Source: an uncultured Gammaproteobacteria bacterium
GTDB lineage: Bacteria; Pseudomonadota; Gammaproteobacteria; GCA-001735895
Direction: 5' to 3'
Assembly (NCBI GenBank): GCA_937894085.1
Contig: CALCSG010000396.1
Location: forward strand, 1 to 52,763
DNA: 52,763 nt
This document shows, in pieces, positions 7,552 to 21,195 of this stretch (positions are counted from its first letter, which is position 1; every line of letters begins with the position of its first letter). Position numbers and translations under genes: made by a program. The notes under the pieces were generated by a model. The model ran no database searches. It was not told the origin of the DNA and was given only the letters and a program-made list of their open reading frames with translations.

Positions 7552-7971
7552 TTAAGTAAATTCCACTGAGATATCCATCTTAATATTGGCTGGCAGATTA
7601 GTCGATACCGGGCAATGTGTCATGCGCTCCATTATGTAATCAATATGACTCTGAGTCACTACACCTGATTTTATTTTAGCCTTAAAAGAGACGGAAATGT
7701 TATTTAAATCCCACAACTCGCCCGCTTCAACCTGCATCTTACCGCTAGCTGATTCCAGTATCAGGTTGCATTCGGCACTATTGGCTCTCATATACAGGTG
7801 CTGGCAGGAGAACAGGGCATTGATAAATAGTATAAAACCCGGTGAACGAATGTTTAAATCAAGCGACTCCCATTGGTTGTCATGCAGAATTTCAACTCGT
7901 AAATCTTTTATTTCATTTTCCTTGTTCTGGTAACTGCTGTTTAACTTCAGGTGAAAATGTCTGTTACTCAT
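7552..7971 (-). CDS. OsmC/Ohr-family-like protein
   Basis: Size, fold-like pattern and CPVSTNL near the C-terminus resemble OsmC (CPxxxx) proteins. Confidence 0.6.
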   Translation of the reverse strand: MSNRHFHLKLNSSYQNKENEIKDLRVEILHDNQWESLDLNIRSPGFILFINALFSCQHLYMRANSAECNLILESASGKMQVEAGELWDLNNISVSFKAKIKSGVVTQSHIDYIMERMTHCPVSTNLPANIKMDISVEFT

Positions 7972-8004: not shown

Positions 8005-9075
8005 CTACATGATAATGATTTTATCATTATTTATTGTTAAGCCTACCGTAGATCCAGTTTCTGCTGGAACATTATCAAAACTGTACATCTCATCAACAAT
8101 CAACTGTTGCCGGCCTACCTGAATTTCGTAGCGAACAATATTCCCCAGAAATTCACGAATTTTAACCTGGCCCTGTAAATCGGCAGTGTTGCTTTCAGCT
8201 TCGCACAAAGCCAGGTTTTGCGGGCGAAGCACTATCGATTTACTACCTTCAATATCGCTGGACTGTAATGATATCTGCATGCCCTTTCCATCGTCAAACA
8301 GAGTGTAATTAGACTGTTTGCTGAGAGTTCCCTGTATCACATTCGCACTGCCAAGAAATTGAGCGACGAAAAGGTTATCGGGATGGTCATACAATTCCAT
8401 CGGTGCTCCGATCTGTTGTACGATGCCGTCTTTAAGAACCGCAATGCGGTCAGCAGTGGTATTGGCCTCTTCCTGGTCGTGCGTTACAAAAATAGTGGTG
8501 AGAGAAAGTTTGCGCTGCAATTCAAGTAGCTCCTGGCGCATATGAACACGTAATGTTGCATCCAGGTTGGATAAAGGTTCATCCAGTAATAATACCTTGG
8601 GCTCAATCACCAGCGTACGCGCCAGTGCTACGCGTTGCTGCTGTCCGCCGGATAACTGATTTGGACGACGTTCTGCATAGTCCTGCAGACCAACCAGTTC
8701 CAGTACGTCCTTTACACGTTGGTTAATTTCATTTTTAGGTAGCTTACGTTCTTCCAGACCGAAAGCTACATTTTTATAAATAGTCATATGGGGCCAAAGT
8801 GCATAATTCTGAAATACCATGCCTACCTGACGTTTCCAGGGTGGTAGTGCAGACACTTCTTCATCGCCGAGGAAAACCTGTCCTTTCTGGCAATGCTCGA
8901 ACCCGGCAATCAATCTCAGTAGAGTCGATTTACCACAACCGGATGGTCCAAGGAAGGCAAAAAATTCTCCCTGTTTGATGCTCAGACTGACATCCTTGAT
9001 GACTCGCGTATTGCCATAGGATAAATCGATATTTTTTAATTCGATGCCGACGGAATGTGTCTGTAGTGGTGGCAT
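8005..9075 (-). CDS. ABC transporter ATP-binding protein (FbpC/PotA-like)
   Basis: Walker A GPSGCGKST, LSGGQQQRVALART signature, Walker B VLLLDEPLSNLD, H-loop THDQEEA. Confidence 0.95.
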   Translation of the reverse strand: MPPLQTHSVGIELKNIDLSYGNTRVIKDVSLSIKQGEFFAFLGPSGCGKSTLLRLIAGFEHCQKGQVFLGDEEVSALPPWKRQVGMVFQNYALWPHMTIYKNVAFGLEERKLPKNEINQRVKDVLELVGLQDYAERRPNQLSGGQQQRVALARTLVIEPKVLLLDEPLSNLDATLRVHMRQELLELQRKLSLTTIFVTHDQEEANTTADRIAVLKDGIVQQIGAPMELYDHPDNLFVAQFLGSANVIQGTLSKQSNYTLFDDGKGMQISLQSSDIEGSKSIVLRPQNLALCEAESNTADLQGQVKIREFLGNIVRYEIQVGRQQLIVDEMYSFDNVPAETGSTVGLTINNDKIIIM

Positions 9076-9087
9076 GATAACTCCTGA

Positions 9088-10785
9088 TTAACTATTATTT
9101 TCAAGGCTGCGCTCACGCCGGCCTTTTTCGATAATTCTATGCGAAAAATAAGTGCCTGTTGCAACGATGACAACAGCGACCATGCCGAGTGCTGCACCAG
9201 CCCCCCTGCCGGCTGCCGATTGCATATACACATAGATGCCATAAGACAGAGGCGCATCTGATTCGCTAGAAACCAGCATGATGGTGGCTGAAAGCTCAAC
9301 TGCTGCAGTGGCAAAACTGGTCACAAAACCGGCCAGTATGCCGCCGGACATCAGCGGCACCACGATGCGATAAATGGTTTTTGTTTTGTTGGCCCCCAGG
9401 TTTTCTGCGGCTTCTTCCAGAGAGCGACTGACCTGATGTAACGCAGAAGTACAGGCTCTGAGAGCATACGGTAGGCGACGTATGGATAAGGCTATTACCA
9501 GCATGACCCACCAGGTCGCCAGTGGCATGTCACCAAATGGTATACTCATGCCAAGAAATGTTCTTAGATAACCTATGCCTAACACCAGGCCGGGAACAGC
9601 CAGGGCAGCCATAGCCGTATAATCCAGCCAGTGTCTGAAACGGATTTTACTGCGTAGCACAAGATAGGCTATCGCTGTACCGAGGATGATATCGATAGTG
9701 GCCGCCATGGAAGCATAGATCAGGGTATTTACCATGAATTCGGGGGTTTCCTCAAAAATGGACACGTAATGCTCAGGCGTAAAGCCGTCTGGCAATACGC
9801 TGTAAGACCAGATGGAGCCAAATGATAGTAGCGTCAGCCCCAGGTGAGGTGATAACACTGCCAGTAAAATGATAATGACAATGGTATAGGCGATAACTTT
9901 TTCCCAGAAACGCATTTTTCGTTTAGCCAGGCCACCGCCGCCTTTTTGTACGGTGGAGTAATCCTTTCCTTTGAGTGCCAGTGAGGCAACCCACATCGCA
10001 AATAATGAAAACACAACCAGGATAACGGCGATGACATAACCCATAGGGTCGTCGATACCAATGGATGAAATACGCAGATAGGCCTGCGGTGCAAGCATGT
10101 TATTGACGTTCAGTAACAGAGGGGTGCCGAGATCATCAAAAACTTTTAGAAAAACCAGCGAAGCACCGGCCACATAACCCGGCATGGCCAGCGGGAAAAC
10201 AATACGCCGGAATAAACGCATGCCATGGCTGCCGAGATTTTGTGCGGATTCCTCCATCGAGCGGTCAATATTATTAAGCGATGTTGACAGGTTAATTAAT
10301 ATAAATGGAAAGTAATGGATGCTCTGTACAAAAATAACGCCGTTCAGCCCCTCCATAAAAGGTATTGTGAAGCCAAAGTATTCATCCATTAATAAATTAA
10401 CGCTGCCATTTGAGCCAAACAGCAGTTGCATAGCTACTGCGCCCACAAAAGGAGGCATTATTAAAGGGACAAAGCCGAGGCTTTGAATGATCACTGAACC
10501 CTTAAATTCAAAGCGGGTTGTGAAATACGCCAGGGGCAGCGAAATAATGGTAGCGACAATAACCGACATCCCTGCCACGTAAAACGAATTAAAAAATGAC
10601 TCCTGAAAAAGCGAGGTGTTAAAAAAATCGAGAAAATTTACCAGGGTCAGGTTGCCGGTATTAACATCGATAAAAGCGACATAGAATACTTTTACAACAG
10701 GAATCACCAGAAATGACAGCATGAAAAGGGCTATTAGAATGAATAAAAGAGTTTGTCCCGGGTTCTTATATGCTTTAGATGTCAT
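9088..10785 (-). CDS. Fused two-module ABC transporter permease (AfuB/FbpB-like)
   Basis: About 12 TM helices with two EAA-like loops (MEESAQNLGSHGMRLFRRIVFPLAMPG and LEEAAENLGANKTKTIYRIVVPLMSGG). Confidence 0.93.
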   Translation of the reverse strand: MTSKAYKNPGQTLLFILIALFMLSFLVIPVVKVFYVAFIDVNTGNLTLVNFLDFFNTSLFQESFFNSFYVAGMSVIVATIISLPLAYFTTRFEFKGSVIIQSLGFVPLIMPPFVGAVAMQLLFGSNGSVNLLMDEYFGFTIPFMEGLNGVIFVQSIHYFPFILINLSTSLNNIDRSMEESAQNLGSHGMRLFRRIVFPLAMPGYVAGASLVFLKVFDDLGTPLLLNVNNMLAPQAYLRISSIGIDDPMGYVIAVILVVFSLFAMWVASLALKGKDYSTVQKGGGGLAKRKMRFWEKVIAYTIVIIILLAVLSPHLGLTLLSFGSIWSYSVLPDGFTPEHYVSIFEETPEFMVNTLIYASMAATIDIILGTAIAYLVLRSKIRFRHWLDYTAMAALAVPGLVLGIGYLRTFLGMSIPFGDMPLATWWVMLVIALSIRRLPYALRACTSALHQVSRSLEEAAENLGANKTKTIYRIVVPLMSGGILAGFVTSFATAAVELSATIMLVSSESDAPLSYGIYVYMQSAAGRGAGAALGMVAVVIVATGTYFSHRIIEKGRRERSLENNS

Positions 10786-10981: not shown

Positions 10982-12286
10982 TTAATGCGATTTATTCGCT
11001 AACTCTAAAGCTTTTGCGTAGTTGGCTTTAACGATGGTGTCCCATTGCTGCTCTACTTCCGCCTGGCGTCCGGTCACTTTATCGGTCGCCTTCTTACGCT
11101 TTTTCTTGAAAATCTTAGCAAATTCCGGATCCGCAGCCTCGGCTTCTGTGATAGGCATTGCTGCAATCAGTGCTTTCGCTTGCGTAATCATTTTACTATC
11201 GCCATTTGCGGCTTCGGCATCCTGGATCGCTTTGGTGGCTTCCCGTAAATCATCCATGCGATAAGTGATCATGACATCGAATAGCGAGTTAACCAGGTTG
11301 TAACGGGACTTGGATAGTATTACATCAAAGTTTACCGCGGCACCAATAGAGCTATCCTTGAATGGATTAGGAAAGCCTGCTGGAGCTTTTGCGTAGGTTT
11401 CAGGGTTAACGGGTAAGCGACGTATTTTCTTGTCTAGCAGGATAGATTGTCCTTCATCAGACAATAAAAAGTCGATGAATGCTTTTGCTGCCTGGGGGTG
11501 GGGTGCGTTGTTCAATAATCCAATATTGGCAGGAACCAGTGCTGTTGTTTTCGGATAAGTGAAGTCGACCGGAAATCCACTGCCTTTAGAAGATAACCCG
11601 AAAAAGTCAATAACAATACCGACACCGAAAGAACCACTGTTAACACCATCGGGAACTCCGAAACTACGAGCGGTAACCGTGTTGAAGTTACCTGCAATTT
11701 CCTTCCATTTGGCCCAGCCCTTATCCCAGCCATCGCCTTGTAACAAAGCTTCAACGGTCAGGTGAGTAGTGCCAGATCGGGACGGAGCTGACATGCCCAC
11801 ATGGTTATGATACACAGCTTTGGTCAGGTCTTCCCATTGGGCAGGAACCGGTATATTTTTGGCTTTCAGGTACCTGGTATTCCACATGATGCCGTATCCT
11901 GCTGCTGCAAATCCGGTGTAATAGCCATCCGGGTCGTTAATCGGATAAGATCCCACTTTTTCAGGTATACCTTTAGCGGATGAAGTGTATTTGGCCAGTA
12001 ATTTATCACCTTTTAAAACTTCGAAAGCATCCGGAGCGGAAGCCCAGAATAAATCGGAAGTATTATTACTGGCGGTCTCCTGAATGTATTTAATACCGGC
12101 GGTGGTTTTCTTTTTCAGCATTTCAATTTGAAGCCCGGGATTCTTCTTTTCAAAAGCGGACTTGAACTCTTTGGTTAAATCTTTGGGGAAAGACGTAACG
12201 ACAATCAGTTTATTTTCCATCGCGTGCAGTGACAGGCTTGCAGTCATGATGGAAATAGCCAACAGCGATTTGAAGGTTATTTTCAT
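10982..12286 (-). CDS. Extracellular solute-binding protein, Fe3+/AEP/thiamine-type family
   Basis: Signal peptide then NKLIVVTSFPKDLTKEFKSAFEKKNPGLQIEML...; followed by the permease and ATPase genes. Confidence 0.9.
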   Translation of the reverse strand: MKITFKSLLAISIMTASLSLHAMENKLIVVTSFPKDLTKEFKSAFEKKNPGLQIEMLKKKTTAGIKYIQETASNNTSDLFWASAPDAFEVLKGDKLLAKYTSSAKGIPEKVGSYPINDPDGYYTGFAAAGYGIMWNTRYLKAKNIPVPAQWEDLTKAVYHNHVGMSAPSRSGTTHLTVEALLQGDGWDKGWAKWKEIAGNFNTVTARSFGVPDGVNSGSFGVGIVIDFFGLSSKGSGFPVDFTYPKTTALVPANIGLLNNAPHPQAAKAFIDFLLSDEGQSILLDKKIRRLPVNPETYAKAPAGFPNPFKDSSIGAAVNFDVILSKSRYNLVNSLFDVMITYRMDDLREATKAIQDAEAANGDSKMITQAKALIAAMPITEAEAADPEFAKIFKKKRKKATDKVTGRQAEVEQQWDTIVKANYAKALELANKSH

Positions 12287-12426
12287 AGATACTCTCCTTT
12301 AAAGTGTGGGAATTATTTTTATATTTTGTTGTAGTGACAGAATAGTCGCAGATTACAGCTCATGGTTCAACGACTATCAATTTCTATTGATATTGTAATT
12401 CTCAATATATGCATTTCAGGAAATAA

Positions 12427-12444
12427 TGTTTCCAATTAGAAACA
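12427..12444. promoter_or_regulatory. Operator-like palindrome 1 (TGTTTC-CAATTA-GAAACA) in the divergent intergenic region
   Basis: Perfect 6-bp arms; 15 of 18 positions identical to the palindrome upstream of gcvT. Confidence 0.75.
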
Positions 12445-12512
12445 AATGGTTTAAAATGCGTCATTTAATGCTGCCTTTGAAAGGCGATAGACAGGAAATT
12501 ACATAAAAGTTG

Positions 12513-13106
12513 ATGAAAACAGAAGCCGTATTTCAACCCCTGAAGCTGGGTGAAAAGGTTCGTGAAATCAGACTGCAACGCAGGTGGACGCTGGAAGAGG
12601 CCGGAAAACGCACCGGTCTGGCGAAGTCAACGTTGTCGAAGATAGAAAATGAACAGGTTTCTCCCAGTTTTGATGTAGTGCAAAAGCTTGCAGCAGGTCT
12701 GGGAATCGATGTGCCTCAATTATTTGTAGCCAGTGCCGAACCTCTCGTGTCGGGTCGACGATCCTTCACTGCCAGCGGTCAGGGGCGAATGCATCCAACT
12801 CAAACCTATAATCATGAGTTATTGGCGACTGATTTAATGCATAAAAAAATGGTACCATTCAAGACGGTGGTTCATGCTCGTGAATTTGAAGAGTTTAATG
12901 ACTGGGTCAGGCATTCCGGCGAAGAGTTTCTACTGGTTTTATCGGGAGAAATTACTTTTTTTAGTGAATTTTATGAGCCGGTAAGTCTGTCCGAAGGTGA
13001 TTCAATGTATTACGATGCGGGTATGGGACATGTGTGTATTTCGCAAAGTGAGCAGGATGCACAGATTCTGTGGGTGTGTACGCCTTCGGATGATCTATCA
13101 ATATAA
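12513..13106 (+). CDS. XRE-family HTH regulator with C-terminal cupin sensor domain
   Basis: GEKVREIRLQRRWTLEEAGKRTGLAKSTLSKIENEQVSPSFDVVQKLAAGLGIDV plus cupin-like GEEFLLVLSGEITFFSEFYEPVSLSEGDSMYYDAGMGH. Confidence 0.93.
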   Translation: MKTEAVFQPLKLGEKVREIRLQRRWTLEEAGKRTGLAKSTLSKIENEQVSPSFDVVQKLAAGLGIDVPQLFVASAEPLVSGRRSFTASGQGRMHPTQTYNHELLATDLMHKKMVPFKTVVHAREFEEFNDWVRHSGEEFLLVLSGEITFFSEFYEPVSLSEGDSMYYDAGMGHVCISQSEQDAQILWVCTPSDDLSI

Positions 13107-13166
13107 TCATAGAGCAATGCATCTATAAAATGGTTTGACTGACTACACTTTAATGCTAAATTATAA

Positions 13167-13186
13167 ATGTTTCCGATAGGAAACAT
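13167..13186. promoter_or_regulatory. Operator-like palindrome 2 (ATGTTTCC-GATA-GGAAACAT) upstream of gcvT
   Basis: Perfect 8-bp arms, lying just downstream of a plausible TTGACT -35 (about 13135) and an AT-rich -10. Confidence 0.75.
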
Positions 13187-13211: not shown

Positions 13212-14336
13212 ATGACTGATATCAACGAAAATATTCAACACACAGCCTTATATGACCTGCATATAGAGCTGGGAGCAAAAATGGTACCTTTTGCAGGCTA
13301 TTCGATGCCGGTTCAGTTCCCCATGGGTCTGGCTAAAGAGCATTTGCATACTCGTAGCCTGGCAGGGTTGTTTGATGTGTCCCACATGGGGCAGTTAAGA
13401 CTGAAAGGAGAGAATGTTGCTGCTGCGCTGGAAACATTGGTGCCGGTTGATATAGTCGATCTGCAACCGATGAAGCAACGTTATGCATTATTCACCAATG
13501 ATAATGGTGGTGTGATGGATGACTTAATGGTGACTAACGCCGGTGACCACCTGTTTGTTGTCGTGAATGCGGCCTGTAAAGAGCAGGATATCAACCATCT
13601 TCGTCAGCACATTGGTAATGATTGCGAAATTGAAGTTCTGGAAGATTATGCCTTGCTTGCATTGCAGGGGCCTCAGGCTGCTGCAGTCATGTCACGCCTG
13701 GCTACAGGTAGTGAAGAGCTGGTATTTATGACTGCTGCAAAGCTGGAAATTGATGGTATGGAATGCTTTGTCACCCGCTCGGGCTATTCAGGTGAAGATG
13801 GATTTGAAATATCGGTACGAAATGATAAAGCGAAGCAACTGGCTAGAACTTTACTGGCTCAGCCGGAAGTAGAAGCGATCGGGTTGGGTGCACGTGACTC
13901 TTTAAGACTGGAGTGTGGTCTGTGTCTGTATGGCCATGATCTGGATGCGCAAACAACTCCCGTTGAGTCCAGCCTGTTATGGGCTCTGACAAAATCAAGA
14001 CGTGCTGATGGCGAAAGACCGGGTGGCTATCCGGGGGCCGATATTATCATGGCGCAGATTGCTAATGGCGTAGAAAAGAAACGTGTAGGTATTAAGGCCG
14101 AAGGCCGCATGCCGGTGCGTGATGGTGCGGTTTTAGTCGATGCTGATGATAATGAAATAGGCGTTGTCACCAGTGGCGGCTTTGGTCCTACAGTAGACGG
14201 GCCTGTAGCAATGGGTTATGTGAAGACCCAGTTTGCAGCACCTGATACCGAATTATTTGCGCTGGTGCGTGACAAAAAAGTACCTGTATCGGTTGTAAAG
14301 CTACCTTTTGTTAAGCAGAATTATTATCGCGGGTAA
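13212..14336 (+). CDS. gcvT: Glycine cleavage system aminomethyltransferase (T protein)
   Basis: TALYDLHIELGAKMVPFAGYSMPVQFP...LFDVSHMGQ; upstream of gcvH and gcvP. Confidence 0.97.
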   Translation: MTDINENIQHTALYDLHIELGAKMVPFAGYSMPVQFPMGLAKEHLHTRSLAGLFDVSHMGQLRLKGENVAAALETLVPVDIVDLQPMKQRYALFTNDNGGVMDDLMVTNAGDHLFVVVNAACKEQDINHLRQHIGNDCEIEVLEDYALLALQGPQAAAVMSRLATGSEELVFMTAAKLEIDGMECFVTRSGYSGEDGFEISVRNDKAKQLARTLLAQPEVEAIGLGARDSLRLECGLCLYGHDLDAQTTPVESSLLWALTKSRRADGERPGGYPGADIIMAQIANGVEKKRVGIKAEGRMPVRDGAVLVDADDNEIGVVTSGGFGPTVDGPVAMGYVKTQFAAPDTELFALVRDKKVPVSVVKLPFVKQNYYRG

Positions 14337-14417: not shown

Positions 14418-14795
14418 GTGAGTACATTAAAATTTACTGAAGATCACGAATGGGTTTTAACTGCCGATGATGGCACAGCCCTGATCGGCATTACCGATTA
14501 TGCACAGGAACAACTTGGTGAACTTGTATTTATTGAGTTACCGGCTGTGGGCGACATAGTTATAAAAGAAGATGCTGTTGCCGTTATTGAATCGGTTAAA
14601 TCCGCCAGTGATTTATTAATGCCGGTATCCGGCGAAATACTGGAAGTCAATGAAGAACTGGATTCTGATCCCGGAATCGTGAATGAAGATGCAATGGGAG
14701 CCGGCTGGTTTATTAAGGTCAGACTATCCGATGAATCAGAACTCGATGAATTGATGGATGAAGATAAGTATCTTGATGGACTGGATCTGGATTAA
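14418..14795 (+). CDS. gcvH: Glycine cleavage system H protein
   Basis: FTEDHEWV...GITDYAQEQLGELVFIELP...IESVKSASDL lipoyl-lysine motif. Confidence 0.98.
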   Translation: MSTLKFTEDHEWVLTADDGTALIGITDYAQEQLGELVFIELPAVGDIVIKEDAVAVIESVKSASDLLMPVSGEILEVNEELDSDPGIVNEDAMGAGWFIKVRLSDESELDELMDEDKYLDGLDLD

Positions 14796-14816: not shown

Positions 14817-17711
14817 ATGAGTGATACCCCTTTATCGATTGATAAACAGTCTATCGATCAACTGCAGCAGAATGACGATTTTAAAAGTCGTCATATTGGG
14901 CCGGATAGTTTTGAACAAAATGCAATGCTGGAGTTACTCGGTTTACAATCTCTGGATGCGTTAATTGATAAAATAGTGCCAGAGTCTATCCGTCGTCATG
15001 ACGATATGACTATTCAGCCAGGATTGACTGAGCAGCAATCGTTAGCGGCATTGAAAAGCATGGCCGCTAAAAACAAAATGTTGAAAACCTGCATTGGTAT
15101 GGGTTATTACAATACTTTTACTCCGCCGACTATTCAGAGAAATATTCTGGAAAATCCGGCATGGTATACGGCTTATACGCCGTATCAGGCTGAAATTTCT
15201 CAGGGCCGCATGGAAGCGATGTTTAACTTCCAGACTATGGTTGGGGATTTATCCGGTCTTGAACTGGCGAATGCCTCTATGCTGGATGAGGCTACCGCCT
15301 GCGCCGAAGCCATGACGTTGTGTCAACGCATGAGTAAAAGTAAGGGTAAGATATTTTTTGTTGCGCAAGACTGTCATCCGCAAAATATTGATGTGGTTAA
15401 AACCAGGGCTGAAACTCTGGATATTGAACTGGTTATTGGCGATCCACTGCAGGGCTTCGAGGGGCTGGATATATTTGGCGTATTGCTGCAATACCCGGGT
15501 ACTACAGGAGAGGTAAAAGATTATCGAAAAATATGTGATCAGGCGCATGAGCAAAAAGCGCTGGTTGCGGTAGCGGCGGATTTATTGAGTCTGACCCTGT
15601 TAACGCCGCCGGGTGATTTTGGAGCCGATGTGGCTGTAGGAAATACTCAGCGTTTTGGTGTGCCGTTAGGTTATGGTGGTCCGCATGCGGCTTACATGGC
15701 AACACGTGATGCCTTTAAGCGCTCGATGCCGGGCAGGCTAATCGGGCTGTCTATCGATAGTCATGGGAATCCAGCATATCGTCTGGCTTTACAGACTCGT
15801 GAACAGCATATCCGTCGTGAAAAAGCGACCAGTAATATCTGTACCGCGCAGGCACTGCTGGCAGTGATGGCCAGTATGTATGCGGTTTATCATGGCCCTG
15901 CAGGCCTGAAGCAAATTGCGCGCCGCGTACAGCGCTTAACAGCCATACTGGCAACTGGTCTGGAGCAGTCAGGTTTTAGAATTCAAACTAAAAATTACTT
16001 TGATACAATTACGATTGAAACTGCTGGAAAAGTTGACGGATTGATGCAACATGCGGTAGAAAATGGTTATAACCTACGCAAGCTGGATGATGATTTATTA
16101 TCCATAGCGCTGGATGAAACAACTACAGCTGCCGATGTTGAAGCAATATGGAAGGTTTTTGCCGGTGAAGATTGTTCGCTCACTGTCAATGACCTGGATA
16201 AAACTGTTGTTGTTCAATTAGCCAATGAATTAATTCGAACCAGTGAATACCTGACCAATCCGGTTTTCAACGCCTATCATTCAGAAACTGAAATGATGCG
16301 TTATATGCGTCATCTGGCGGATAAGGACCTGGCACTGGACCGGGCAATGATTCCCCTGGGATCCTGTACCATGAAATTGAATGCAGTTGCCGAGCTAATG
16401 CCGATAAGCTGGCCGGAATTTGCGGGTCTGCATCCATATGTACCATTAGATCAGGCACAGGGTTATCAGCAGTTAACTCAGGAACTGGAACAAATGTTAT
16501 GCACTGCGACAGGTTATGCGGCGGTTTCCCTGCAACCGAATTCAGGTGCGCAGGGCGAATACGCCGGATTGCTGGCTATACGTGCCTATCATGACAGCCG
16601 CGATGAAGGTTATAGAAATATATGCCTGATACCTGCTTCGGCGCATGGTACCAATCCAGCTTCTGCTCATATGGCTGGTATGAAGGTTGTGGTAGTTGCT
16701 ACCGATGACCATGGCAATATCAGCCTGCCAGACTTAAAAGCCAAGCTTGAAAAGCATGGTGAAAACCTGGCCGCTATTATGATTACCTATCCTTCGACTC
16801 ATGGTGTATTTGAAGCCAGCGTGGTTGAAGTATGTGAACTGGTGCATCAGCAGGGTGGTCAGGTTTATATCGATGGTGCCAATATGAATGCAATGGTCGG
16901 GGTTTGTTCGCCAGGTAAGTTTGGAGGCGATGTTTCGCATCTGAATTTACATAAAACTTTCGCGATTCCTCACGGTGGCGGTGGCCCCGGTGTCGGTCCT
17001 ATCGGTGTTGTTGAACACCTTAAGCCTTTTCTACCCGGTTATTCGGTCTTTAAAAACGGGCCGGAGCATGTCGGGCCAGTGTCAGGAGCCCCCTGGGGTA
17101 GTGCTGGAATTCTCCCGATAAGCTGGGCATATATTGCCATGATGGGTAGAGAAGGTTTGTTGCAGGCAACACAGGTGGCAATCCTCAATGCTAACTACCT
17201 GGCACAGCGTCTGAAACAATATTACCCGATTCTTTATACCGACCCGAATGGTATGGTGGCGCATGAATGTATTCTGGATGTGCGTCCGATTAAGGATAAA
17301 ACCGGCATTACCGTAGATGATATTGCCAAACGTCTGATCGATTATGGTTTTCATGCGCCGACAATGTCATTTCCTGTCCCCGGTACATTAATGATTGAAC
17401 CTACAGAGAGTGAATCTAAATTCGAAATTGACCGTTTCTGTGATGCTATGATTGCCATCAGAAAAGAAATTGATGATGTGGAATCAGGTGCTCTGGATAA
17501 AGATGACAATCCTTTGAAGCATGCGCCACATACTGTGGTGTCTGTATCAGCCAATGAATGGGGCCATAGTTATACTCGCGAGATGGCCGGTTATCCGGTA
17601 GATTCACTGAAGACTGCTAAATACTGGCCACCGGTTGGTCGGGTAGACAATGTTTACGGTGATAAAAACCTTGTTTGCTCATGTCCAGCAATCAGTGAAT
17701 ACGAGGAGTAG
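14817..17711 (+). CDS. gcvP: Glycine dehydrogenase (aminomethyl-transferring), single-chain P protein
   Basis: 964 aa; FKSRHIGP start, [33 protein letters not shown] region. Confidence 0.98.
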
Positions 17712-17715
17712 TGAA

Positions 17716-18231
17716 ATGACAAAATCGTTAGTAATTACATTTGTGGGTGATGACCGCCCCGGAATTGTTGAATCAATTTCAAAAATCATCATGCAGTACG
17801 AAGGAGAGTGGGTGGAAAGCCGGATGGCTAACTTATCGGGTAAGTTTGCCGGAGTACTTCGTACAAATATTCCAGAAGATAAATGTGAAAGTTTTACTAC
17901 ACAGCTGAAGTCAGGCGTTAAGGGTATAACTATTAATGTAGAACAGGTCGATAAATCTGAAGAATCGACTGCTAAACAGCAATGTTACAAACTGGAACTG
18001 GTTGGACAGGATAGACCGGGTATTATCCACCGGATTTCATCGGTGCTGGTTAATAACGGCGCGACAGTTGAAGATATGGAGAGCGAAGTAACTGAAGCGT
18101 CCATGTCGGGTGAGAAACTTTTCAAGGCCAGTATCACTTTGTGCCTGGCAGAAGGTTATAGTGTCGATAAATTAAGCGATGTACTAGAAGATCTGGCGAA
18201 TGAGTTGATAGTCGATATCGAGCTGGGATAA
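17716..18231 (+). CDS. ACT-domain protein, GcvR-like
   Basis: Two ACT repeats, each with DRPGI (VITFVGDDRPGIVESIS; LELVGQDRPGIIHRIS); ATG at 17716, 4 nt after the gcvP stop. Confidence 0.85.
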   Translation: MTKSLVITFVGDDRPGIVESISKIIMQYEGEWVESRMANLSGKFAGVLRTNIPEDKCESFTTQLKSGVKGITINVEQVDKSEESTAKQQCYKLELVGQDRPGIIHRISSVLVNNGATVEDMESEVTEASMSGEKLFKASITLCLAEGYSVDKLSDVLEDLANELIVDIELG

Positions 18232-18430: not shown

Positions 18431-19687
18431 ATGTTTAGTAAAAATGATCGAATTAAAGGTTACGATGATGAACTTTGGGCTGCCATTGAGTCTGAAAACA
18501 GGCGTCAGGAAGAGCATATAGAGTTAATCGCTTCAGAGAATTATACCAGTCCTCGTGTGATGGAAGCTCAGGGGTCACAGCTGACTAACAAGTATGCTGA
18601 AGGCTACCCTTCCAAACGTTATTATGGTGGTTGTGAATTTGTCGATAAAGCGGAGACTCTGGCGATCAATCGTGCAAAAGAATTATTCGGTGCCGATTAT
18701 GCTAACGTACAGCCTCATTCAGGTTCTCAGGCCAATACAGCCGTTTACATGGCCCTGGTACAACCTGGCGATACCATTCTAGGTATGAGTCTGGCGCATG
18801 GCGGGCATTTAACGCATGGCGCCAAACCCAACTTCTCCGGCAAGATTTACAATGCTATTCAGTATGGTTTAGTCGAAGCAACCGGTGAAATTGATTATGA
18901 TCAGGTAGCAGCTCTGGCCAAAGAGCATAAACCGAAAATGATTGTGGCAGGTTTCTCTGCTTATTCCCGTATTGTAGACTGGCAGCGGTTTCGTGATATT
19001 GCGGATTCAGTGGGTGCTTACCTGTTTGTCGATATGGCGCACGTAGCGGGTTTGATTGCGGCCGGTGTTTATCCGAATCCTGTACCCATTGCTGACGTGG
19101 TTACCACCACAACTCATAAAACTCTAAGGGGTCCACGCGGTGGACTGATTCTTTGTAAGGCTAATGAAGAACTGCAAAAGAAATTTAACTCTGTGGTGTT
19201 CCCCGGTATTCAGGGTGGCCCGCTGATGCATGTTATTGCCGCTAAAGCGGTGGCTTTTAAAGAAGCCTTAGAACCCGCATTTAAAGTTTACCAGCAGCAG
19301 GTTGTCGATAATGCCCGTGCCATGGTCAAAGTGTTTATCGATCGTGGATTTGATGTGGTTTCCGGTGGCACCGATGATCACCTGTTTCTGGTTAGTTTCA
19401 TCAAGCAGGGGTTAACCGGAAAGGCAGCAGATGCAGCTTTAGGTGCAGCGAATATTACGGTCAATATGAATGCAGTACCGAATGATCCTAAATCTCCATT
19501 TGTAACCAGTGGTATTCGGGTGGGTACACCAGCCATTACAACTCGCGGTATGGGTGTAGCTGAATCACAGCAACTGGCAGGCTGGATGTGCGATATTCTG
19601 GATGACCTGGAAAACCAGCAAACAATTGATGAAGTAAAAGTGAAAGTGCTGGAAATTTGCAAGCGCTTTCCTGTTTATGAAGCCTAG
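18431..19687 (+). CDS. glyA: Serine hydroxymethyltransferase
   Basis: [66 protein letters not shown]-lysine motif. Confidence 0.98.
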
Positions 19688-19812: not shown

Positions 19813-21195
19813 ATGGCTATCAGCGTCTTTGATCTTTTCAAAATTGGTATCGGGCCTTCCAGTTCGCATACGGTAGGGCCGATGCGTGCAGCAGGTAAGT
19901 TTGTTCATGCACTGCAGCAACAGGGCAAATTGCAACAGGTTCGCTCTATAAAGGTTGAATTATTTGGTTCTCTCGGCGCTACCGGGCTAGGACATGGGAC
20001 AGATAAAGCGATTCTACTCGGTCTCGAAGGTGAAATACCTGAACTGGTCGATACCACTCTAATTGACCAGCGTCTTGCGTCAATCAGGTCTTCAAAAACT
20101 CTCAATTTATTACAACAGCATAGTATTCACTTCAGCGAGCCTGAAGACTTTATTTTGCACCGTAAAAAATGCCTGGCCTATCACTCTAATGGCATGCAGA
20201 TAAATGCATTTGATGAGAATGGGATCGAGTTATACGGTAATACTTATTATTCTGTCGGTGGTGGTTTTGTAGTCGAAGAGCAGGATGCTAAAAAGGATGT
20301 TATTCATGCAAGTGATGATACTGTGCTACCTTTTTCTTTCAAAAGCATGGCCGAGCTTCTTAAGTTTTGTCAGCTCAGTAAAATGTCGATCAGCCAGATA
20401 ATGATGGAAAATGAAAAATGCTGGCGCAGCGAGGGTGAAATACGGGAAGGGTTGTTAAAAATCTGGCAGGTCATGCAGGACTGTATTCAGGCCGGATTTA
20501 AAAACGATGGTATTCTACCCGGTGGATTAAATGTTAAACGTCGAGCACCCACGTTGTATAAAAAACTGTGTAATCAACAGGAAGAAGCTCTGCGCGATCC
20601 ATTAACAACAATGGATTGGGTTAATTTATATGCGATTGCGGTTAATGAAGAAAATGCGGCCGGTGGACGTGTGGTGACTGCACCCACTAACGGGGCGGCT
20701 GGAATTATTCCTGCAGTACTTAAATATTATGACCGGTTTGCAAGCCACTCTAACGAAGAAGGTATTATTCGCTTCCTGTTAACAGCCGGAGCTATTGGTA
20801 TTTTATACAAGGAAAATGCATCAATTTCCGGTGCCGAAGTCGGTTGTCAGGGTGAAGTGGGATCTGCCTGTTCGATGGCTGCAGCCGGACTTGCAGAAGT
20901 ATCGGGTGGCACTCCAGAGCAGGTCGAAAATGCAGCAGAAATCGCTATGGAGCATAACCTGGGGTTAACCTGTGATCCTATCAATGGGCTGGTTCAGGTC
21001 CCTTGCATAGAACGTAATGCTATGGCTGCAATAAAAGCCATTAATGCGAAACGGATGGCAATCAATGGTGATGGACAGCATTTCGTGTCTTTAGATAAAG
21101 TGATAGCGACCATGCGTGAAACCGGCAAAGACATGAAAAAGAAATATAAGGAAACCTCGCGTGGTGGCCTGGCAGTTAATGTGACTGAGTGTTAA
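19813..21195 (+). CDS. sdaA: L-serine ammonia-lyase (single-chain, Fe-S)
   Basis: [24 protein letters not shown]; conserved Cys regions [21 protein letters not shown] and [17 protein letters not shown]. Confidence 0.97.

Follow-up and report, generated by a model that had tools for sequence, protein, structure and literature searches.

A gene encoding a transcriptional regulator of the XRE-cupin class (hereafter REG) and the glycine cleavage operon that follows it carry two near-identical palindromes in a 52,763-nucleotide stretch of DNA from an uncultured gammaproteobacterium (contig CALCSG010000396.1, positions 1 to 52,763; referred to as the window). In sequence comparisons, these palindromes are conserved, co-occur with REG and concentrate at glycine and serine genes, and the combination of their conservation, of copies located in trans and of a control set of genomes lacking REG makes autoregulation and repression of a glycine/serine-catabolism regulon by REG the most likely reading. 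We assign a probability of roughly 0.8 to the complete model, in which REG would repress both its own gene and gcv through the palindrome until relieved by a glycine-related ligand.

Two near-identical palindromes at REG and gcvT

The first palindrome, operator 1 (TGTTTCCAATTAGAAACA, positions 12427..12444, unstranded), is located in the upstream spacer of REG, 68 bp from its ATG at 12513, and the second, operator 2 (TGTTTCCGATAGGAAACA, 13168..13185, unstranded), lies 26 bp before the start codon of gcvT (ATG at 13212). In agreement with the initial annotation, which had reported this pair, the two sites coincide at 15 of 18 bases (3 differ), with identical 6-bp arms and a 6-nt spacer in both. 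The window contains 22 perfect inverted repeats of this 6-6-6 layout, among which only the arm pair TGTTTC/GAAACA occurs twice, and a degenerate form of the motif, allowing up to three mismatches, generates four strand-matches in the window, all of them at operators 1 and 2, against 0.44 expected from shuffled sequences. Shuffling of the local spacers equaled the observed score in 2% of cases for the spacer of operator 1 and in 0 of 300 for that of operator 2.

The initial annotation had proposed a genome-wide scan for the motif. Across the whole genome (6.02 Mb, 567 contigs), TGTTTCCNATNRGAAACA is present at zero or one mismatch only at operators 1 and 2, with each remaining match showing at least two mismatches. 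The looser core TTTCCNAWNRGAAA yields 4 + 3 strand matches in the genome versus 1 + 3 for a reversed control, and its matches beyond the locus in the genome of the window (G000) fall inside predicted genes. Among 18 further motif matches examined, 16 are intragenic with respect to predicted genes and one is a REG site; the exception, on contig 156 of genome G001, is located 35 bp from a gene resembling those for peptide-binding proteins and does not match the motif at its outer G/C. A regulon scattered throughout the genome was hence rejected, because matches elsewhere lie nearly all within predicted genes.

Both palindromes are close to predicted promoters, which are consensus matches only: operator 1 overlaps the -35 element predicted for REG (TTTCCA at 12429, with TAAAAT ending at 12457), and operator 2 begins 5 bp past the -10 element predicted for gcvT (TTGACT at 13135, TAAATT ending at 13162). 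The real proof that the pair did not arise by chance is its conservation across relatives, described below.

REG and the glycine/serine cluster

The REG gene (12513..13106, forward strand, with an alternative TTG start at 12510) encodes a 197-residue protein with an N-terminal XRE-type HTH domain (HTH_3, PF01381; 52.5 bits versus a cut-off of 23) and a C-terminal cupin domain (Cupin_2, PF07883; 41 bits versus 27.2). The cupin residues H134, E138 and H173 are invariant, and the HTH segment STLSKIENEQ is nearly so. An AlphaFold2 model (mean pLDDT of 82) shows HTH helices in the N-terminal part (12-70) and a beta domain at the C-terminus. The top Foldseek matches to this model are HppE and 1y9q, but the fit is poor over the whole chain (TM of about 0.4-0.5, large RMSD), so that the resemblance is confined to the domain level and offers no clue to the ligand. 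As in other XRE-cupin regulators, a palindromic site is found beside the gene of the regulator, on the evidence of sequence and conservation, and targets appear to be few and mostly local (two genomic sites at zero or one mismatch), with unlinked targets in some relatives.

Three other identities were considered and rejected for REG. The match to PuuR (NCBIfam PRK09943) reaches 44.5 bits against an equivalog cut-off of 211 and involves only the HTH part; Pfam matches are limited to HTH and cupin, excluding both a GcsR/TyrR-like enhancer-binding AAA+ protein and a GcvA of the LysR type, with its LysR HTH and substrate domains.

REG is followed by a co-directional, forward-strand cluster in the order gcvT, gcvH, gcvP, double-ACT gene, glyA and sdaA. 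The aminomethyltransferase gene gcvT (13212..14336; PRK13579 type, 561 bits versus an NCBIfam cut-off of 459) is the predicted target, and gcvH (14418..14795) and gcvP (14817..17711), both assigned as open reading frames with adjacent counterparts in relatives, are predicted co-targets. The genes for serine hydroxymethyltransferase (glyA, 18431..19687) and L-serine ammonia-lyase (sdaA, 19813..21195; its homologue in locus L162 matches TIGR00720 at 707 bits) lie within the cluster and have no operator of their own here. The double-ACT gene (17719..18231; Pfam ACT_6 and ACT) encodes a weakly GcvR-like protein, scoring 30 bits with the GcvR model against a cut-off of 267. It is probably co-transcribed with gcvP (7-bp gap), its position directly after gcvP is kept in the clade of the window, and its product could be a glycine-sensing partner.

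Conservation of the palindrome with REG

Phylogenetic footprinting had likewise been suggested in the initial annotation. A search of genome contigs identified 43 REG relatives with 39-85% identity, and in 37 of these loci REG adjoins gcv genes. Within the 250 bp upstream of REG, a palindrome scores 9/10 or 10/10 in 37 of the 42 usable loci and is perfect in 29. These counts are not independent, since the loci and genomes are related; L009, which begins inside REG, was left out. Only 0-7 of 300 shuffles score as well. The consensus of these palindromes is gTTTCCNATNGGAAAc, and the surrounding sequence has otherwise diverged. Across 42 sites drawn from about ten genera, the core is almost invariant; arm positions carry approximately 1.4-2.0 bits and flanks a mean of 0.14 bits per position, an information content that is inflated because the sites were chosen for matching. 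An upstream palindrome is missing from five loci: three are alphaproteobacterial (about 40% identity), and in the other two, L017 and L037, REG and gcv are unlinked. In an even draw of 369 gammaproteobacterial genomes, REG was detected in nine (E <= 1e-25).

A counterpart of operator 2 (9/10 or 10/10) occupies the REG-gcvT spacer in 11 relatives, including six of the nine members of the window's own clade; a good second site is missing from this spacer in the other three (L010, L012 and L013) and in many loci of Photobacterium and Psychromonas. For the Vibrionaceae, it may instead be the divergent glyA-gcvHP genes on which the upstream site acts.

Some distant relatives of REG present related palindromes in other contexts. 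A relative with 39% identity (L125, 1358-2119, in G348) has a perfect CGTTTCCGATCGGAAACG just upstream, and its neighbors resemble an FAD oxidoreductase, a thiamine-diphosphate enzyme and an aldehyde dehydrogenase, which indicates a shared DNA core with other targets; the core motif is therefore not exclusive to glycine genes. In alphaproteobacterial relatives (42%), TGTTTCGTYCRGTAAACG is found upstream of the regulator at about position 7877 of L044 and L045, with a urease-alpha-like gene nearby in L044.

Sites in genomes with unlinked REG, and gcvT without REG

The best evidence for a link between REG and the palindrome comes from copies in trans. In Marinomonas piezotolerans and Maribrevibacterium harenarium, REG is located beside a DAHP synthase gene and has no site of its own, yet both species carry two sites in the spacer between glyA-gcvHP and the divergent gcvT (L158, 7830 and 8014; L159, 7682 and 7842) and one just before sdaA (L162, 3344; L163, 4004), where purU and sarcosine-oxidase-like genes, the latter named by resemblance only, are adjacent. 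Two complete genomes with unlinked REG (G317 and G409) harbor one site between gcvHP and agcS-gcvT (L160, 7778; L161, 5150). In Pseudoalteromonas denitrificans, REG is next to agcS with one site on each side of REG, and the gcv cluster identified at another place in the genome (gcvT at 37%) has no site. From the positions of the sites in these genomes, the predicted targets are therefore the genes for glycine cleavage, serine hydroxymethyltransferase, serine deaminase and an amino-acid carrier.

A gcvT gene of the PRK13579 type occurs in 31 of the 369 gammaproteobacterial genomes (E <= 1e-80), and 30 gcvT loci were fetched. Of these loci, 24 come from genomes devoid of REG (at E <= 1e-15), and in none of them do the 1.5 kb preceding gcvT contain a 10/10 site; one of the 24 (G140) shows a 9/10 match at a distance of 100 bp. 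The control covers the upstream side of gcvT only and would miss sites as distant as those of G317 and G409 (1.6-1.8 kb). The 1.5-kb interval contains a 10/10 site in G000, G004 and G236. In G241, whose genome is 58% complete and where REG adjoins gcvT, the variant GTTTCGTATAAGAAAC lies between the two genes, and G348, with its 39%-identical REG relative, has no site at gcvT.

The divergent ABC importer

The initial annotation had proposed that REG controls itself, gcvTHP and the divergent ABC importer. Autoregulation and control of gcvT and the following genes are well supported by the three lines of sequence evidence above, and control of the importer is not. The importer genes, on the reverse strand, encode a periplasmic binding protein (10982..12286; SBP_bac_6, 102 bits), a permease of two fused units (9088..10785; two BPD_transp_1 stretches, with matches under the equivalog cut-offs) and an ATPase (8005..9075; ABC_tran, 138 bits). 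The best-matching importer models include 2-aminoethylphosphonate types, all below their equivalog cut-offs, and the best NCBIfam match of the binding protein, PhnS2, scores 134 bits versus a cut-off of 393, too little to assign a substrate. Beside the importer, positions 7552-7971 encode a 139-residue protein with no Pfam or NCBIfam match; in L011, where the importer is absent, its gene is directly divergent from REG.

We consider it doubtful that operator 1 also controls the importer, in which case REG would couple uptake of a glycine-related substrate to its breakdown. The palindrome does lie in the spacer common to importer and REG in G000, G005 and G006, the only sampled genomes in which importer and REG are directly divergent with the site between them (the G006 contig ends in REG), and REG sites at agcS transporters elsewhere indicate that transporter control occurs within the regulon. 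However, operator 1 is 140 bp from the start of the binding-protein gene, on the opposite strand, versus 68 bp from REG, whose predicted promoter it overlaps. Close homologues of the binding protein are encoded in G000, G001, G005, G006 and G008, with a fragment in G010. G001 encodes an 88%-identical importer on a separate contig, where it lies behind an NtrC-like regulator and has a sigma-54-like TGGCAC-N5-ATGCT; no palindrome there scores above 7/10. The arrangement suggests that control has switched. REG of G001 retains both sites and faces a different binding protein (41% identity). In G008, one gene and about 1.4 kb separate the importer from the site, and four congeners (G002, G003, G004 and G007, some of them incomplete) have REG and its site and lack the importer. 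The site thus tracks REG rather than the importer: since it is kept without the importer and is absent at the relocated 88%-identical copy, it appears to belong to REG and gcv, and importer control, possible but unsupported, is probably not part of the conserved function.

Two further features were noted around the importer. In G001, the region at about 1380-1500 of L088 (contig 191) carries the sigma-54-like TGGCACAGTAAATGCT, with the relocated importer behind the NtrC-like response regulator. In the window, a second palindrome, TATCAAT-TTCT-ATTGATA (12375-12392), lies in the importer spacer, nearer to the importer than operator 1, and could be the importer's own control site; the corresponding spacers of G005 and G006 contain similar, though not identical, inverted repeats.

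Proposed mechanism

In the proposed mechanism, a dimer of REG would bind TGTTTCC-N4-GGAAACA. At operator 1, the dimer would overlap the promoter of REG itself, leading to autoregulation, and at operator 2 it would cover the start region of the gcvT promoter, leading to control of gcvT-gcvH-gcvP-ACT and possibly of glyA and sdaA further downstream. The ligand, suggested by gene content only, would be glycine or a closely related compound such as serine or a one-carbon intermediate; its binding to the cupin domain would relieve repression, so that plentiful glycine would be catabolized to serine, pyruvate and one-carbon units. Repression by REG with release by a glycine-related ligand is the most likely mode by analogy with the XRE-cupin proteins studied in Pseudomonas aeruginosa, which are local repressors bound beside their own genes, at palindromic motifs where these have been determined (PMC7901475).

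It is unlikely that REG is instead an activator of gcv. The known regulators, GcvA in Escherichia coli and GcsR in P. aeruginosa, are activators of gcv (PMC4894688), and operator positions differ between genomes; on the other hand, the overlap of operator 1 with the predicted -35 element of REG and the position of operator 2 after the predicted -10 element of gcvT constitute a repressor geometry, albeit relative to consensus promoters, and every P. aeruginosa XRE-cupin protein whose regulon has been determined is a repressor (PMC7901475). Binding of the palindrome by some other regulator, with REG as a mere neighbor, is highly improbable: palindromes are used by many families, and the genome has 28 LysR-type matches, but the site follows the presence of REG across genomes, including those with unlinked REG, and in Pseudoalteromonas it precedes REG itself, next to agcS. 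Least credible of all is that the palindromes are RNA hairpins, either riboswitch or terminator, for although the minus strand of operator 2 scores as terminator-like, base identity in the arms is conserved beyond what pairing demands, position relative to genes and strand varies, and a glycine riboswitch at gcvT was rejected after Rfam searches returned no riboswitch above the gathering score in the window (tRNA only) or in eight relatives.

Discussion

The putative REG repressor belongs to a known kind of protein, the local XRE-cupin repressor, and its regulon is newly inferred from sequence. Like the Pseudomonas XRE-cupin repressors (PauR, PsdR, ErfA and others; PMC7901475), REG combines the same domain order with palindromic sites, a site at its own gene and one or a few metabolic targets; it differs from them in that its targets are unlinked in some relatives and in that its binding and repression are predicted. 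That source makes no mention of glycine or gcv. The nearest functional parallel is GcsR of P. aeruginosa, a TyrR-like enhancer-binding activator of gcvH2-P2-glyA2-sdaA-gcvT2, which controls the same catabolic set (gcvH-gcvP-glyA-sdaA-gcvT) but belongs to another protein family, binds TGTAACG-N4-CGTTCCG and activates with glycine (PMC4894688). The GcvA/GcvR system of E. coli also controls glycine cleavage, and the REG cluster encodes a GcvR-like ACT protein; GcvA, however, is of the LysR type, and this ACT protein scores far under the GcvR cut-off. In structural terms, 1y9q, an HTH_3 family regulator of Vibrio cholerae, shares an HTH plus cupin-like chain with REG (Foldseek E of 1.7e-12), at 17% identity and a whole-chain TM of 0.38-0.42. 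In other bacteria, gcv operons are controlled by the glycine riboswitch, which differs from the REG system in being an RNA element and was not found in the window or in eight relatives.

The open-licence literature searched contained no description of an XRE-cupin regulator of gcv or of this regulon. We lean slightly towards a reading in which REG founds a third class of proteins regulating glycine cleavage. It would be an XRE-cupin repressor that senses glycine and governs a gcv-glyA-sdaA-agcS regulon; its distribution would be patchy, in gammaproteobacteria that are mostly marine, where it would replace or accompany GcvA/GcvR and GcsR, and in the clade of the window it might cooperate with the GcvR-like ACT protein. 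The analysis also corrects a tempting over-reading, as a shared spacer does not make the importer a target.

Glycine and serine are important substrates for marine heterotrophs. These results provide a predicted binding motif and target set for a regulator that, in Vibrio, Photobacterium, Psychromonas and Marinomonas among others, is otherwise annotated only in generic terms as HTH/cupin, and they suggest that many marine bacteria share a conserved switch, apparently undescribed, for the use of glycine and serine.
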